In this document: one piece after another, positions 5,589 to 10,967 of the stretch
Layout of the letters: each line of letters starts with the position of its first letter
Position numbering within the stretch: the stretch's first letter is position 1
Virus record (IMG/VR): IMGVR_UViG_3300020005_000028
Coordinates: 1 to 21,321 of that record
Origin: a virus
Length of the DNA stretch: 21,321 bases
Reading direction: 5' to 3' (one strand)
The notes under the pieces: model-generated
Seen by the model: the letters and a program-made list of their open reading frames with translations, nothing else
Database searches by the model: none
Told to the model about the DNA's origin: nothing
Program-made: the position numbers and the translations under genes

Positions 5589-5797
5589 GTGAGAGTTTCT
5601 TTGAACGCCACACTGGACGAAATCCTCCGGCCGCTGCTCTCGCGTTCCCTTATGGAACTGTGGATTGCTCTGTCCTGGAGATGTCCCCGTGCTATTGGTC
5701 TCAGTATCAGAAGAGGCAGATAGCCCTGCCTAGGCTTTGTGCCTGAACGAACTTTCCACAATGAGAGACAGCGCAGCACGCAGACGATCGAGAAAAG

Positions 5798-5899
5798 ACT
5801 CGACCGACAGAAGACTCGAGCCGAAGAATCACTCGGTCAGAAGACTCGGCCGAGAACTCGAGCCCCCAATGTAACTCGAGGACTCGAGCTCCTTACTCG
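5798..5899. repeat. Array of ACTCG boxes (iteron-like), eight copies
   Basis: ACTCG occurs at 5798, 5814, 5831, 5844, 5856, 5874, 5882 and 5895, usually within a longer AGACTCGACC or AACTCGAG context and mostly 12-18 bases apart. Two more copies lie at 6038 and 6079. The same box forms a second array at 10879-10967. The spacing is irregular enough that this is not a simple tandem duplication. It looks like a set of binding sites for one protein, as at replication origins or partition sites. Confidence 0.6.
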
Positions 5900-5966
5900 A
5901 CCGGTCTCAGGCTCATGGAGCACTGGCCTCTCCCGTCGGAAAGACTGATGACGCACTCCATGCAGT

Positions 5967-5995: not shown

Positions 5996-6260
5996 ATGAT
6001 TTTTTATTCAGGCGAAAGTTGGCCTAGGGGTAAATAGACTCGACCAAGAATACAGAAAAGTAAGAGATAAGCGAGATAACTCGAGGAAGATTCGCAAATT
6101 ATTGGGGAATTAGTGATGATTATTAAGATTTTTGACCGCTAAGTGGTTGTTTTCATTAAATAAATATATAATAGAATATATAGAATAATAGTAATAGTAT
6201 AGAGAGAGGTCATCTACTTTTCAACTAATCTTACGAGAGGCCACTTGACAACCTTTTACA
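5996..6260. other. AT-rich tract, candidate DNA unwinding element or origin
   Basis: No gene is visible. Base composition becomes very AT-rich from about 6085, with an almost pure A/T core at 6151-6201. ACTCG boxes flank it at 6038 and 6079, and the repeated GAGAGGTCA and GAGAGGCCA words follow near 6205 and 6235. TTGACCGCTAA at 6132-6142 recurs exactly in the promoter before the primase gene (12628-12638). Protein-binding boxes next to an AT-rich tract at the divergence of two transcription directions is the usual build of a replication origin. This is inference. Confidence 0.4.
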
Positions 6261-6510
6261 CACTTGATGACCCCCTTTATAGGGGGAGCGAAAAAAAATT
6301 CTACCCCCTCATCTCTTACGTTTTTTCTATGCAAAAACAGTCACTTAACCGGGAAAAATCAATAAATTGCTCGCAATTGGAACCTACCCATAAAACTCGC
6401 CCATCTTCCTTACTGTCCCCCAAACACCCCATACCAACAATTCCCCCAATTCCCCCAATTCGCCCTCTTCTCCCTACCCTTGTCGACATGCCCTCCTAGA
6501 TCCCAGCTAC
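6261..6510. other. Noncoding stretch with C-tract cluster
   Basis: I find no supported gene. A short palindromic hairpin, CCCCC and GGGGG around TTTATA, lies near 6270-6286. From about 6395 to 6480 the plus strand is pyrimidine-rich, with at least four C-tracts including AATTCCCCC repeated twice in tandem, so the minus strand has G-quadruplex potential. The short open frames that span it start at non-ATG codons without ribosome-binding sites. Confidence 0.45.
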
Positions 6511-7156: not shown

Positions 7157-7495
7157 ATGGGTTGGTACTCTGGACCAAAGGACAACAGCGTTTGCTCGCA
7201 CGTGAAGTTCAACCTGAAGGGTTGCAACCGGCTTGCAAATCACGATGGTATGCATCGTAACATCTTTGACTCAACAAACGAGTACTGGTCGGACGATGCA
7301 GGTCGGTACATCAACACGCAGGAGGAATGGATCGCGCTAGTCAACGGGCTGGGAAATCCGAAGATGCAAGTTACAATCACTGAAGCACAACGCCGGCTGT
7401 TGATGAAGATCATAGCAACCTATGGTAAATCCTCAGACGAGGAAGAACTAAAGGAAATCGCGCGGTTGCTCCACATATTCGGCTTAGCGGCCTGA
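7157..7495 (+). CDS. Small protein with CxH-x7-C-xn-H-xn-H motif
   Basis: This 112-residue protein starts at 7157 with GGAGG five bases before the ATG. The N-terminal part contains VCSHVKFNLKGC followed by NHDGMHR, a Cys/His pattern (C13, H15, C22, H29 and H33 approximately) that could bind zinc; short C...GC...GHxGxH domains are frequent in phage proteins of unknown role. The second half (from about residue 70) is helical and charged. The function is unknown. The stop codon is immediately followed by the first copy of the structured RNA element. Confidence 0.65.
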   Translation: MGWYSGPKDNSVCSHVKFNLKGCNRLANHDGMHRNIFDSTNEYWSDDAGRYINTQEEWIALVNGLGNPKMQVTITEAQRRLLMKIIATYGKSSDEEELKEIARLLHIFGLAA

Positions 7496-7560
7496 TGCAA
7501 GTCCATGTGGTGTCGTGTACACCACATGAGCGTGCAACACCGCACGATAACAGGAAGTAT
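7493..7560 (+). ncRNA. Structured RNA element, copy A (leader of 7566 gene)
   Basis: The element begins at the upstream stop codon and reads TGCAAG (7496-7501). Hairpin 1 is 10 perfect pairs (7504-7513 with 7519-7528) and hairpin 2 is CGTGC (7531-7535) and GCACG (7542-7546) around the loop AACACC. CAGGAAG follows, and the ATG at 7566 is 19 bases after hairpin 2. The same order occurs in copies B and C. In hairpin 2 the central pair is T-A here and A-T in the other copies, a compensatory change that supports the fold. Function is unknown. Confidence 0.6.
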
Positions 7561-7565
7561 CCGCT

Positions 7566-7868
7566 ATGTCTAAGAAGATTGCATTCAATACTGGTCGGAA
7601 GTACACTATCCACGGTCAGCGCATCGTTGCTACCCTGCACGACGATGGTATCGTTACGTTCCACGACATCGACCGGATGGTGTGTGGGGAGTTCAAGCTC
7701 GGACTGCACTGCCAATTCAACCAGGTGGAAGTTATGCACTGGTACGACAACAATCTGGCGAATGGAACAGCCCGCTCGCACAGAGATGCTTTCTATCACG
7801 ACAGCACGAACAGTACCGCTGCATATGTCGATCTGTGCGGCGAGACGCTCAACAAGGTGGTGCGCTAA
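7566..7868 (+). CDS. Unknown small protein, 100 residues
   Basis: The protein begins MSKKIAFNTGRKYTIHGQRI and has alternating hydrophobic strands up to about residue 50 (IVATLHDDGIVTFHDIDR), suggesting a beta-rich N-terminal domain, then a polar second half with several His and Asn. No family is recognised. It is the first gene behind RNA element copy A, with GGAAG about 11 bases before the ATG. The stop TAA overlaps the next ATG by one base. Confidence 0.65.
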   Translation: MSKKIAFNTGRKYTIHGQRIVATLHDDGIVTFHDIDRMVCGEFKLGLHCQFNQVEVMHWYDNNLANGTARSHRDAFYHDSTNSTAAYVDLCGETLNKVVR

Positions 7869-8125
7869 TGACACACTCAATGAACGCACGCGCCACACGC
7901 CAGGGTTGGACTATACTCAAGCATGTCTCTGTGAATGGTGATGGCGTGCAGGCGCCCGGCGCTATCGTAATGTGCCAGATAGCCGACACAAGACGTCCTT
8001 TCGCAGTTCACTTCTTCAACGAGCAAGACGGCGGCTTCCATATGGGAAGCTACTGCGAGGATCGGGCGGAAGCAGAAGACGTCTACGCAATGCGCGTACT
8101 GAAGTACCTCGGAAGGAACAAGTAG
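7868..8125 (+). CDS. Unknown small protein, 85 residues
   Basis: The start is taken at 7868, overlapping the upstream stop (TAATG); the frame is open further upstream but inside the previous gene. The protein contains GWTILKHVSVNGDGVQAPGA then FAVHFFNEQDGGFHMGSY and an acidic helix EDRAEAEDVYAMRVLKYL. It resembles the many small phage proteins with a mixed alpha/beta fold, but I cannot assign one. The stop overlaps the following GTG-started gene (TAGTG). Confidence 0.65.
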   Translation: MTHSMNARATRQGWTILKHVSVNGDGVQAPGAIVMCQIADTRRPFAVHFFNEQDGGFHMGSYCEDRAEAEDVYAMRVLKYLGRNK

Positions 8126-8226
8126 TGATTGTAGAGTATGACGAAGCCCTGTTTCTCGGGCACGACAAAGAGAAATGGGTAAAGAAATACGGACCTCGCC
8201 CGCACACACGAAAGGAGTGTAAATGA
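8125..8226 (+). CDS. 33-residue peptide with GTG start
   Basis: GTG at 8125 overlaps the upstream TAG by one base and has a strong GGAAGGA eight bases upstream. The frame encodes a charged peptide (beginning MIVEYDEALFLGHDKEKW) and ends at TGA 8226, which overlaps the next ATG. The perfect overlaps on both sides and the ribosome-binding site support translation. No function can be proposed from 33 residues. Confidence 0.5.
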   Translation: MIVEYDEALFLGHDKEKWVKKYGPRPHTRKECK

Positions 8227-8756
8227 GCCCAAGAATTCGAGTCAGAGAAGTAGAAGTCACTCAGGCGGATCGCGACGCGATGCTGCACAAGCATCCGATC
8301 GAAATTCCTCCTGTGGAGGTTGGGCGAACTCAAGTTAGTCCTACCGAAACGGTGGTTACCACATGCATAGTAAGTGAGGTTTACCGACACGAAGAAAATG
8401 GTGTGGTGAAGATCTATAACATTCGCGAGATTAAGGATTTAATCTACACTAACGATATTCCGGTGAAAGCTCTTCAAATATACATGTCTGACGAATATGT
8501 CAGTTATATCTTTACTTACGGAGGATGTGAACAGTCCCACGTAGATCGCGTTACTGAGAAAGACATAGAACGCCCTGCAATTGGGGTTTTCTATCCCGAT
8601 GGGTTGCAAATTATAGATGGCACCCATCGCATCGTCGCGCAATGGCGCAGGTTCAACAAGAAGAAAATGCGTATCCTGGTTGTTCCTGGTGAATTGGAAC
8701 ACTTATTCCTAATCGACCAGGACGAACTTGTTGACGCAGTTTGGATCAATAGGTGA
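8223..8756 (+). CDS. ParB/sulfiredoxin-like domain protein
   Basis: This 177-residue protein has the ParB/Srx signature near its end: DGLQIIDGTHRIVAQWRRF, with DGTHR at residues 132-136, followed by a strand MRILVVPGELE. In this family the DG(T/H)HR segment binds nucleotide or phosphate; relatives include ParB N-terminal domains, sulfiredoxins and phage nucleases or ADP-ribosyltransferase-like proteins. The first 110 residues show a less clear mix of strands and helices. The start overlaps the upstream stop (ATGA) and AAAGGAG lies just before it. The exact activity is unknown; the family assignment is from the motif only. Confidence 0.65.
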   Translation: MSPRIRVREVEVTQADRDAMLHKHPIEIPPVEVGRTQVSPTETVVTTCIVSEVYRHEENGVVKIYNIREIKDLIYTNDIPVKALQIYMSDEYVSYIFTYGGCEQSHVDRVTEKDIERPAIGVFYPDGLQIIDGTHRIVAQWRRFNKKKMRILVVPGELEHLFLIDQDELVDAVWINR

Positions 8757-8779
8757 ATCAACACGACAGAGGAGATACA

Positions 8780-8968
8780 ATGAGAGGAATAATCTTTCTC
8801 GCAATCATCCTTACTCTCTGGTTAGTACCAAAAAAGTACTATCCAAGAAGCTGGTTGGATCCTCACTATGAAAGCACAGCATGTATTCCGGAGCCTGAGC
8901 CCGATGAAAAGACTCTGTTATCGAAGGAATGGTTAGACTTTTGCGACATGATGGTGTGGTCAAAGTGA
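8780..8968 (+). CDS. Small single-pass membrane protein, 62 residues
   Basis: I chose the ATG at 8780 because GAGGAG lies seven bases before it; an in-frame ATG at 8753 overlapping the upstream stop would add nine polar residues. The N-terminus is a hydrophobic helix (about residues 3-16, GIIFLAIILTLWLV), then basic KKYYPR, so the short C-terminal part probably faces the cytoplasm or, if cleaved, is exported. Acidic PEPEPDEK is in the middle. No family is recognised. Its TGA begins RNA element copy B. Confidence 0.6.
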   Translation: MRGIIFLAIILTLWLVPKKYYPRSWLDPHYESTACIPEPEPDEKTLLSKEWLDFCDMMVWSK

Positions 8969-9036
8969 TTGCAAGCCCATGTCCCACCTCGGTGAGGCAT
9001 GTACGAGCAATCTCGCTCGATATGGAGAACTACATT
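8966..9036 (+). ncRNA. Structured RNA element, copy B (leader of 9037 gene)
   Basis: It starts at the upstream TGA. Elements in order: TTGCAAG (8969-8975), hairpin 1 (8978-8988 with 8991-9001, one mismatch and one G-T pair), hairpin 2 CGAGC (9004-9008) and GCTCG (9015-9019) around AATCTC, then GGAGAA and the ATG 17 bases after hairpin 2. GATTGC at 8967-8972 can pair with GCAATC at 9007-9012. That would close hairpin 1 inside a longer stem and break hairpin 2, a possible two-state switch. Confidence 0.6.
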
Positions 9037-9360
9037 ATGAGTAACCCAATCTGGACACTGCTACACCCACTGATGACATACGAACATCTTGGTCCCTATC
9101 TTCCATACTTCCTCGTTAACGAGGATGAGCGTCCAGCAGCGCAGCAGTTCAACGAACGCTACAAATTCGGAGGTTGGCGTCCGTTCGGTCAAGACAAGTT
9201 TACTCTAACTGAGACTCATATTTTGAAGTATCCCGGCGACCCGGCGCATCAGCCGATGGCAGTAACCCATCTGCGGGATGAACTGATCCTCCTGTATAAC
9301 AGCGATGTGGTTGTTATCAAACAGCCCGACGGCTCGTTTGAAGTCTGCAGGATGGATTGA
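9037..9360 (+). CDS. Unknown protein, 107 residues
   Basis: The start at 9037 follows GGAGAAC by about nine bases and is placed the same way as in the other genes behind this RNA element. The protein begins MSNPIWTLLHPLMTYEHLGP, has many aromatic and Pro residues, and ends with two likely strands (LRDELILLYNSDVVVIKQPD). It looks like a compact soluble domain. I do not recognise it. Its TGA is the first codon of RNA element copy C. Confidence 0.65.
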   Translation: MSNPIWTLLHPLMTYEHLGPYLPYFLVNEDERPAAQQFNERYKFGGWRPFGQDKFTLTETHILKYPGDPAHQPMAVTHLRDELILLYNSDVVVIKQPDGSFEVCRMD

Positions 9361-9435
9361 TTGCAAGCCCTTGCTCCATCCGTAAGAAAGATGGAGCAAG
9401 TTCGAGCAATCCCGCTCGCAATGGAAGTACATGAT
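9358..9435 (+). ncRNA. Structured RNA element, copy C (leader of 9436 gene)
   Basis: It starts at the upstream TGA and contains TTGCAAG (9361-9367), an 11-bp perfect hairpin 1 (9370-9380 with 9390-9400, nine-base loop), hairpin 2 CGAGC (9403-9407) and GCTCG (9414-9418) around AATCCC, then GGAAG and the ATG 17 bases after hairpin 2. Hairpin 1 differs in sequence from copies A and B but keeps position and length, as expected if the fold, not the sequence, is conserved. GATTGC (9359-9364) can pair with GCAATC (9406-9411), as in copy B. Confidence 0.6.
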
Positions 9436-9705
9436 ATGGCTCAACTAGGAAAGGCAGTGAGCGTTCTATTAAGATTTGAACGCTCTTGCAGTGAGATGTA
9501 CGACGACCTGTCGGCGTTTCATGCCCCAAGCGAATGCTACGAAGACGTATCCCGCGGCCAACGACGACGTTTCCGTAGGGTACGAAAGCACGCCTGCGCG
9601 GTAGCCGGCGTCAAAAATCTCAAGCAACTCCATAAGGCGATCAAAAAGGTATGCCCAACTTGGGATCGCTACAATCACTTCCGCCTGGGCTTGGAGCACG
9701 TCTGA
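9436..9705 (+). CDS. Unknown basic helical protein, 89 residues
   Basis: The ATG at 9436 is chosen by alignment with the other two element-led genes; a TTG further up would place the whole RNA element inside the protein. The protein is helical and basic (RGQRRRFRRVRKH at about residues 40-52, KNLKQLHKAIKKV later), with Cys at three places. The charge suggests nucleic-acid contact, which is inference. The stop overlaps the next ATG (TGATG). Confidence 0.6.
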   Translation: MAQLGKAVSVLLRFERSCSEMYDDLSAFHAPSECYEDVSRGQRRRFRRVRKHACAVAGVKNLKQLHKAIKKVCPTWDRYNHFRLGLEHV

Positions 9706-10673: not shown

Positions 10674-10892
10674 ATGCTCAAACTTGTCACGTTCATTCGT
10701 TGGAATATGGAACCACGTCTTCGAACACCAGTGAGCATCAACCCCGTTGAGGTGTCTGACGTCGAAGACTGCTGTGGTACAGATGTGCCTAGTAGCGCGA
10801 TTACGCTAAGGAATAAAAAGGTTCATCTTGTTATGGGCGGCCACTTCGATATTGTTGCAAAATTGACTTCGAAAGAAGACTCGGTCGGCTAA
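10674..10892 (+). CDS. FlbD-like small beta protein
   Basis: This 72-residue protein fits the short FlbD-like pattern: hydrophobic start (LKLVTFI), then a segment PVSINPVEVSDVEDCC, then a strand AITLRNKKVHLVMG and a final FDIVAKL. FlbD is a small flagellar-operon protein, and phages carry many short relatives of unknown role. ATG 10674 follows GAGG by seven bases and lies about 25 bases after the promoter. The end of the gene runs into the second ACTCG array, whose first box is at 10879, so the array is partly coding. Confidence is moderate for the family and low for function. Confidence 0.6.
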   Translation: MLKLVTFIRWNMEPRLRTPVSINPVEVSDVEDCCGTDVPSSAITLRNKKVHLVMGGHFDIVAKLTSKEDSVG

Positions 10893-10967
10893 AGACTCGA
10901 CTGCCGGCAGAAAACTCGACCTCGACCAGTAACTCGACCTCAACTTCTAACTCGACCGGAGAACTCG
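10879..10967. repeat. Second ACTCG-box array, six copies
   Basis: ACTCG occurs at 10879, 10895, 10914, 10932, 10950 and 10963, with the extended form AACTCGACC in the middle copies and 18-base spacing between three of them. It matches the array at 5798-5899. The last box lies immediately before the ATG at 10970, and the ribosome-binding site GGAG sits between the last two boxes. A bound protein could therefore affect expression of the next gene. Confidence 0.65.

Follow-up and report, generated by a model that had tools for sequence, protein, structure and literature searches.

A covarying three-strand RNA module with two mutually exclusive folds at gene junctions of unrelated phages

The stretch of viral DNA considered here (the window: IMG/VR entry IMGVR_UViG_3300020005_000028, complete, 21,321 bases) is probably a fragment of a phage genome, and at three of its gene junctions stand copies, A, B and C, of a structured RNA element of about 57 letters. 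We regard it as close to certain that these copies belong to an undescribed family of structured RNAs, which recurs in unrelated phages, and that the two exclusive folds of this family are real. The folds are made by three short strands. Strand 1 (GAUUGC) pairs with strand 2 (GCAAUC), which is the 5' arm together with the loop of a hairpin further downstream, hairpin 2; the same strand 2 can instead pair with strand 3. In the long, outer fold (OUT), a strand 1:strand 2 stem is followed by an internal loop of about 4x4 (AAGYC / NNCG) with a variable hairpin 1 above it, the whole being a single interrupted hairpin that begins where the upstream gene has its stop codon. In the short fold, strands 2 and 3 form hairpin 2, about 17 nt 5' of the next start codon. 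Comparison of sequences shows that both of these mutually exclusive helices are conserved.

An original prediction, made from the letters of the window, had placed three copies with one architecture, in the order of stop codon, TGCAAG, hairpin 1, hairpin 2, ribosome-binding site and ATG, and all three are confirmed on the plus strand (Table 1). The sequence TGCAAGYCCNTG occurs exactly at 7496, 8970 and 9362 of the plus strand, and the ATG follows hairpin 2 by 17-19 nt in each copy. Hairpin 1, as proposed, has about 10-11 pairs and a different sequence in every copy, with a mismatch in copy B. In line with the idea that the element, and not a gene, is repeated, the proteins encoded 3' of copies A-C have no convincing match in Pfam or PHROG, and no family of either collection is common to the three. 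The prediction had staked itself on the existence of further copies with preserved pairing and on the lack of an Rfam match; further copies are abundant and keep the pairing, and the covariance models of Rfam 15 gave 0 matches in the window and in ten related loci, even at E<=5 over window positions 7400-9500, so that identity with a known RNA family is rejected.

Further copies were sought in 2.9 million viral contigs with a pattern that fixed TGCAAGYC and the frame of hairpin 2 and left hairpin 1 free. This first scan gave 31 loci, about 22 of them with true copies and the remainder chance-like (L008, L013, L014, L016, L017, L020, L026, L029 and L030 were judged by eye to be chance). Several contigs with true copies carry more than one, and hairpin 1 differs between these yet stays self-complementary. 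A covariance model, R1, built from 18 copies (alignment A1), was run over whole viral records, with palindromic reverse-strand echoes left out of the counts. By this model the 39-kb contig 3300047160_001700 (G001) has 16 copies, all on one strand and within 24.5-32.2 kb, G002, G012 and G013 have several, and most relatives of the window phage have two to three. The G001 array reads gene-element-gene-element, its first six junctions fitting within 5 nt, and the element separates consecutive small genes. Two scans in which the hairpin-2 loop was partly or wholly free added further copies, among them one divergent composite copy (GAGCGC...GCGCUU) in a 136-kb viral record (IMG/VR 2513237141_000003, L234), where a further small hairpin and a very short open reading frame (ORF; MSKKVIILLRKLELASYRNGKK) come next. 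A second model, R2, built on the outer fold, gave divergent copies higher scores; for instance, it raised the score of the copy at G002:7729 from 28.6 to 47.3 bits, this copy being in its training set, and that of a copy outside the training set, G488, from 33.6 to 43.9 bits. Altogether 38 distinct copies, from uncultivated phages, were aligned.

The compensatory change claimed for the element is seen at every pair of hairpin 1, since 10 of the 10 show double-sided changes among 18 copies; for copy A such changes are seen in its orthologous copies. In the same 18 copies the covariation score for hairpins 1 and 2 is 0.627 versus 0.161 after shuffling, and 0 of 500 shuffles reach it; the larger alignment has 97.5% of its cells paired and a score of 0.647, versus 0.157 when shuffled and at most 0.16 when slid. 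All 37 composite copies that were scored have A-U or U-A as the central pair of hairpin 2. Further out, the pairs of this hairpin were fixed by the search pattern, and their constancy is no evidence; conservation of the strand 2:strand 3 helix is the weaker in support, as the search patterns fixed most of that stem. TGCAAG and the CG of the internal loop are nearly invariant, though the patterns demanded much of both. The covariation also bears on the idea that the element is a DNA-level junction for recombination or gene swapping, with RNA folding incidental. Related phages agree in the upstream flank of copy C and differ in the gene that follows, as such swapping would have it; recombination sites, however, would keep sequence and not pairing, whereas the hairpin-1 arms differ and covary, all G001 copies face the direction of transcription, and the distance to the start codon is nearly fixed. 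We consider this explanation most improbable.

The alternative pairing of GATTGC with GCAATC, which had been noticed in copies B and C, is real and covaries, but it is not limited to these two: copy A has it as TGATGCA/TGCAACA with one A-A mismatch. Among 26 distinct combinations of strands 1 and 2, the six positions are paired in 26, 25, 25, 22, 25 and 19 cases, and the replacements include U-A to A-U, U-A to G-C, A-U to G-C and U-A to C-G, giving compensatory types such as AGUGC/GCACU, AGCGC/GCGCU, GAAUGC/GCAUUC and GAUGC/GCAUC. The scans with a partly or wholly free hairpin-2 loop recovered identical compensatory types in sister contigs and an independent one in L234. The alignment based on the covariance model, which misplaces copies with unusual loops, has strand 1:strand 2 paired in 93.5% of cells, with a score of 0.149 versus 0.067 when shuffled and no more than 0.037 in every slide. 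In one copy (G001:31577-31632) strand 3 repeats the sequence of strand 1, and strand 2 must choose between them; at position 12378 of L185 (which is G001), strand 2, GUACAAUC, is fully pairable, over 8 bp, with a downstream copy of strand 1, GAUUGUAC. Because most covarying bases of strand 2 sit in the hairpin-2 loop, a pseudoknot between this loop and the 5' flank is conceivable. It is disfavoured, as the hairpin-2 loops of L186:6672 and L185:6185 have 3 and 4 nt, respectively, and these loops and the 8-bp pairing at L185:12378 leave no room for it.

Table 1. Positions of the three copies of the element and of their parts in the window
Feature	Position	Strand	Detail
Copy A, whole element	7492-7548	+	
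Copy A, strand 1	7493-7499	+	TGATGCA; includes stop TGA 7493-7495 of upstream ORF 7157-7495
Copy A, hairpin 1	7504-7528	+	arms CATGTGGTGT / ACACCACATG, 10 bp
Copy A, hairpin 2	7531-7546	+	CGTGC-AACACC-GCACG, exact; strand 2 = 7533-7539, strand 3 = 7542-7546
Copy A, ribosome-binding site	7552-7557	+	AGGAAG; ATG at 7566
Copy B, whole element	8966-9021	+	
Copy B, strand 1	8967-8972	+	GATTGC; upstream ORF stop TGA = 8966-8968
Copy B, hairpin 1	8978-9001	+	contains a mismatch
Copy B, hairpin 2	9004-9019	+	CGAGC-AATCTC-GCTCG, exact; strand 2 = 9007-9012
Copy B, ribosome-binding site	9024-9028	+	GGAGA; ATG at 9037
Copy C, whole element	9358-9420	+	
Copy C, strand 1	9359-9364	+	GATTGC; upstream ORF stop TGA = 9358-9360
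Copy C, hairpin 1	9370-9400	+	arms CTTGCTCCATC / GATGGAGCAAG, 11 bp
Copy C, hairpin 2	9403-9418	+	CGAGC-AATCCC-GCTCG, exact; strand 2 = 9406-9411
Copy C, ribosome-binding site	9423-9427	+	GGAAG; ATG at 9436

The window phage is a tailed phage: the left part of the window encodes, on the minus strand, the large subunit of terminase and other proteins, and the right part encodes a primase and an SF2-helicase-like protein on the plus strand. Copies A-C are situated among small plus-strand genes of unknown type, and nucleotide BLAST of this region against isolate phages found no match. Two stretches outside confident genes, 5788-5955 and 10859-10955, hold imperfect repeats based on GACTCG and AACTCGA (families D4, D8 and D13). 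At 6247-6300, 5' of the run of small genes, TTGACA is followed by the palindrome CCCCCTTTATAGGGGG.

The phages that carry the element have very little else in common. At least six carrier groups, namely window-type phages, G001, G002, G004, G008 and G009, have next to no ORFs in common in the sampled regions (two single-ORF matches); G001 encodes a family A DNA polymerase and thymidylate synthase, G002 a RecE-like exonuclease, and the window a PaMx25-like primase. The suggestion that the element might be an autoregulatory protein-binding site does not fit this picture, because many different genes follow the element (16 in one phage), in phages with almost no common proteins in the regions compared. 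This points to the machinery of the host rather than to a phage-encoded regulator: a phage-specific regulator is unlikely, and a host factor is the simpler reading, all the more so as none of ten sampled carrier records encodes a member of the RNase III family PF14622. The composite model found no match in 200 sampled proteobacterial genomes, under strict filters and without a positive control. The sole pattern match in a genome collection, in a Roseovarius metagenome-assembled genome (L154), has no clear hairpin 1 or ribosome-binding site and is taken as chance.

Hairpin 2 also occurs alone. A relaxed scan of viral contigs for such solitary copies, in which the spacing to the Shine-Dalgarno (SD) sequence and ATG was limited by the pattern, finds GCAATCCCGC with complementary flanks, then SD and ATG, to be common among the matches listed; at least three further flanking pairs are present in 43 of the 95 such matches, where about 5 would be expected by chance (our own estimate). 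The C-AAUCCC-G loop of hairpin 2 recurs in many phages, shortly 5' of the SD and start codon. Several phages have more than one solitary hairpin (GGGCAATCCCGCCC and similar): five in L062, four in L075, three each in L109 and L140, and three in each terminal repeat of Caulobacter phage CcrRogue (L198/L200/L201), in all of which they lie after promoter-like sequence and before SD and ATG. Among the matches listed, a strong -35/-10 pair stands at most 20 nt upstream in 13 of 57 distinct solitary cases, versus 2.2 in shuffled sequence, which puts the hairpin of those 13 cases at the 5' end of the mRNA or close to it. The solitary hairpin 2 is a widespread phage leader hairpin, absent from Rfam. 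It differs from the composite one in strength: predicted energies are -10.8 +- 4.7 kcal/mol for the solitary and -6.3 +- 0.3 kcal/mol for the composite hairpins, and the central pair is G-C in 45 of the 57 solitary cases among the matches listed (A-U or U-A in 9) versus 0 of 37 composite copies (Fisher p about 3e-17), a contrast that may come in part from GC-rich phages, differing stem lengths and shared ancestry of the composites. Ahead of the solitary hairpins of L099 and L127 are promoters with GGGCATATGCCC-type palindromes, which window positions 6247-6300 resemble. In L076 and L105, 5' of solitary hairpin 2, TGCAAGG or TGCAAGC forms the 7-nt loop of an upstream hairpin and looks T-loop-like; this is possibly another architecture of TGCAAG, or chance.

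With such a recurrent loop close to the SD and start codon of many phages (at a spacing that the scan pattern limited), one might suppose that hairpin 2 or the AAGYC/NNCG loop is bound by a translation factor or an RNA-binding protein of the host, which would aid translation or stability, and that OUT masks the site; the nearly invariant TGCAAG and internal-loop CG, much of which the patterns required, would agree. We find this improbable. The G002 loops vary (AUUCAC, ACUCAA, ACUUUC, GCUUAA, ACC) and mostly still pair with strand 1, which is odd for a sequence-specific loop, and the strict solitary hairpin has only six matches in 289 alphaproteobacterial genomes, 0 of 6 in the SD-ATG leader arrangement. 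A version of the solitary hairpin in these host-type genomes is rejected; several of the six matches look, by eye, like one conserved coding stretch (AGNPA, acetyltransferase-like).

What we favour, tentatively and at rather less than an even chance, is that the element is an intercistronic processing module with a handover to hairpin 2, as judged from the sequences of uncultivated phages. OUT would form first in newly made polycistronic mRNA, and a host double-strand nuclease of RNase III type would cut it at or near the internal loop. On the upstream message hairpin 1 would then remain, capping the 3' end immediately behind the stop codon, while the downstream message would lose strand 1, and hairpin 2 would form at its new 5' end, an end of the same kind as many phages make directly at promoters. 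In this way the module would turn one transcript into separately protected single-gene mRNAs; both 5' stem-loops and 3' hairpins are known mRNA stabilisers (PMC7509114). OUT is predicted to be the more stable fold in most copies, but the predicted energies of the two folds are similar, with a mean difference of -1.6 kcal/mol. A composite hairpin 2 that is weak and uniform is what one expects if OUT has to be capable of prevailing before cleavage, and the handover would account for the place of solitary hairpin 2 at promoters.

The strongest rival, which is not mutually exclusive with processing, is a switch set by the ribosome: a ribosome terminating at the upstream stop codon covers strand 1, reaches as far as the base of hairpin 1 and frees strand 2, whereupon hairpin 2 promotes initiation at the next gene, and without upstream translation OUT persists and the next gene is expressed less. 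The original prediction had the stop codon upstream of the element; it is present, but usually inside, overlapping strand 1, at element position 1 or 2 in 26 of the 38 copies and otherwise mostly 1-22 nt upstream, and the start codon usually lies 13-29 nt 3' of the element. Where the stop codon is at position 1 or 2, hairpin 1 starts about 9 nt later, and the leading edge of a terminating ribosome is roughly 9 nt past the stop codon. Moreover, a different stop codon (UGA, UAG or UAA) goes with a different strand 1, for which strand 2 compensates, and the small genes that the element parts in G001 are consecutive. On the other hand, the predicted accessibility of the SD averages 0.49 over the 38 copies whether strand 1 is free or blocked, and the SD is not predicted to be open in one fold only. 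The equal values do not support simple translational masking, nor do they support the plain translational switch at which the original prediction hinted. Strand-1 pairing is also kept where the stop codon lies 8-22 nt upstream; in L186:4785 both the pairing and compensatory change persist with the stop 22 nt away, beyond the expected cover of a ribosome. Finally, solitary hairpin 2 follows promoters and needs no upstream cistron. We therefore see a ribosome-set switch as possible but unlikely, if somewhat less so than a bound host protein. A role of the UCCC loop as anti-Shine-Dalgarno fits copy B and L027, and is rejected for lack of a matching pair in L011 (5836), L006 and several G002 copies. 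After most elements of L185, the SD lies inside a small inverted repeat of its own, TGCCTAGGAGGGCA.

Several points weigh against processing. The stop codon at position 1 or 2 in most copies hints at a part for translation as well; the sequence of the internal loop is conserved to a higher degree, in part because of the patterns, than an RNase III site should need; L185:6759 has lost most of its strand-1 pairing; and an alphaproteobacterial host of the carriers is hinted at only by the Caulobacter phages with solitary hairpin 2. The conserved loop could also be read as the core of a new small self-cleaving ribozyme, in which OUT would cleave its own internal loop and hand over to hairpin 2 as in processing. 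A variable stem next to an internal loop that is small and hardly varies, with a conserved stem below, and the coupling of C or T at element position 11 to the opposite base, speak for it; a conserved core that is small for a ribozyme and the absence of any Rfam ribozyme match at E<=5 speak against it, and we give it very little credence. The coupling itself is strict: in alignment A2, columns 11 and 60, C at 11 goes with T/A (23 of 23) and T at 11 with G/A (15 of 15), which may mark a non-canonical pair inside the internal loop.

A more general possibility, to which we lend slightly less belief than to processing as such, is that the module amounts to a self-separating code for gene cassettes: unrelated phages would put one module at many cistron junctions, and a cut or covered stop-codon strand would let the leader hairpin form on the next gene. 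Were this true, any small gene flanked by modules would be an independently expressed unit, and the module would be a new class of RNA device, triggered by a nuclease, a ribosome or self-cleavage. In phage genomes, tiny unknown genes stand in long rows, and little is understood of how a single transcript serves to express each of them; a module of three strands that recurs and covaries, in phages with almost no shared proteins in the regions compared, offers an answer that can be tested directly. The covariance models allow such junctions to be found, and the module is a possible compact part for multi-gene expression.

Among known systems, the element works like a processing site or a switch, and we assign it to neither class. 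The T7 R1.1 RNase III signal, located between genes 1.0 and 1.1, has 60 nt and a 4/5 internal loop (PMC6121014). OUT, in its predicted fold, is likewise intercistronic, about 60 nt long and made of two stems around an internal loop of 4-5 nt. No T7 site is known to have a leader hairpin formed by the refolding of a downstream strand, or a stop codon in its pairing strand. Solitary hairpin 2, often at or near the predicted transcript start and beside the SD, resembles the stabilising 5' hairpin of E. coli ompA; unlike hairpins of that type it has a recurrent loop sequence, and in the composite it competes with a second pairing. Attenuators and the expression platforms of riboswitches similarly have exclusive helices that share one strand; unlike them, the element has no recognised aptamer and no predicted masking of the SD, and hairpin 2 is followed by a ribosome-binding site rather than the U-run of an attenuator (a short T-run is found in a few G001 copies only). 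The put antiterminator RNA of HK022, a pair of hairpins, lies close to early promoters and not at each junction between cistrons. The closest described phenomenon, and the only relevant one found in open-licence papers searched for the core sequence and families of phage hairpins (an earlier description elsewhere is possible), is that of the Start-Associated Sequences (SAS) and extended SAS (ESAS) of Cluster K mycobacteriophages (Pope et al. 2011, PMC3203893). Like SAS/ESAS, the element occurs many times per genome, with nearly all copies facing one way and lying just 5' of unrelated genes, with the upstream stop codon sometimes inside and an inverted repeat followed by a Shine-Dalgarno motif. 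The ribosome-binding sites of the window lack the SAS consensus GGGATAGGAGCCC, to which the inverted repeat around the G001 SD is analogous but different, and the element is found in other phages, with other sequences. The 17-bp repeats of ESAS keep their sequence and do not support RNA pairing, and its authors favour DNA-binding sites (PMC3203893); the arms of the present element, by contrast, vary, covary and keep their pairing, and they are joined by a second, exclusive helix.

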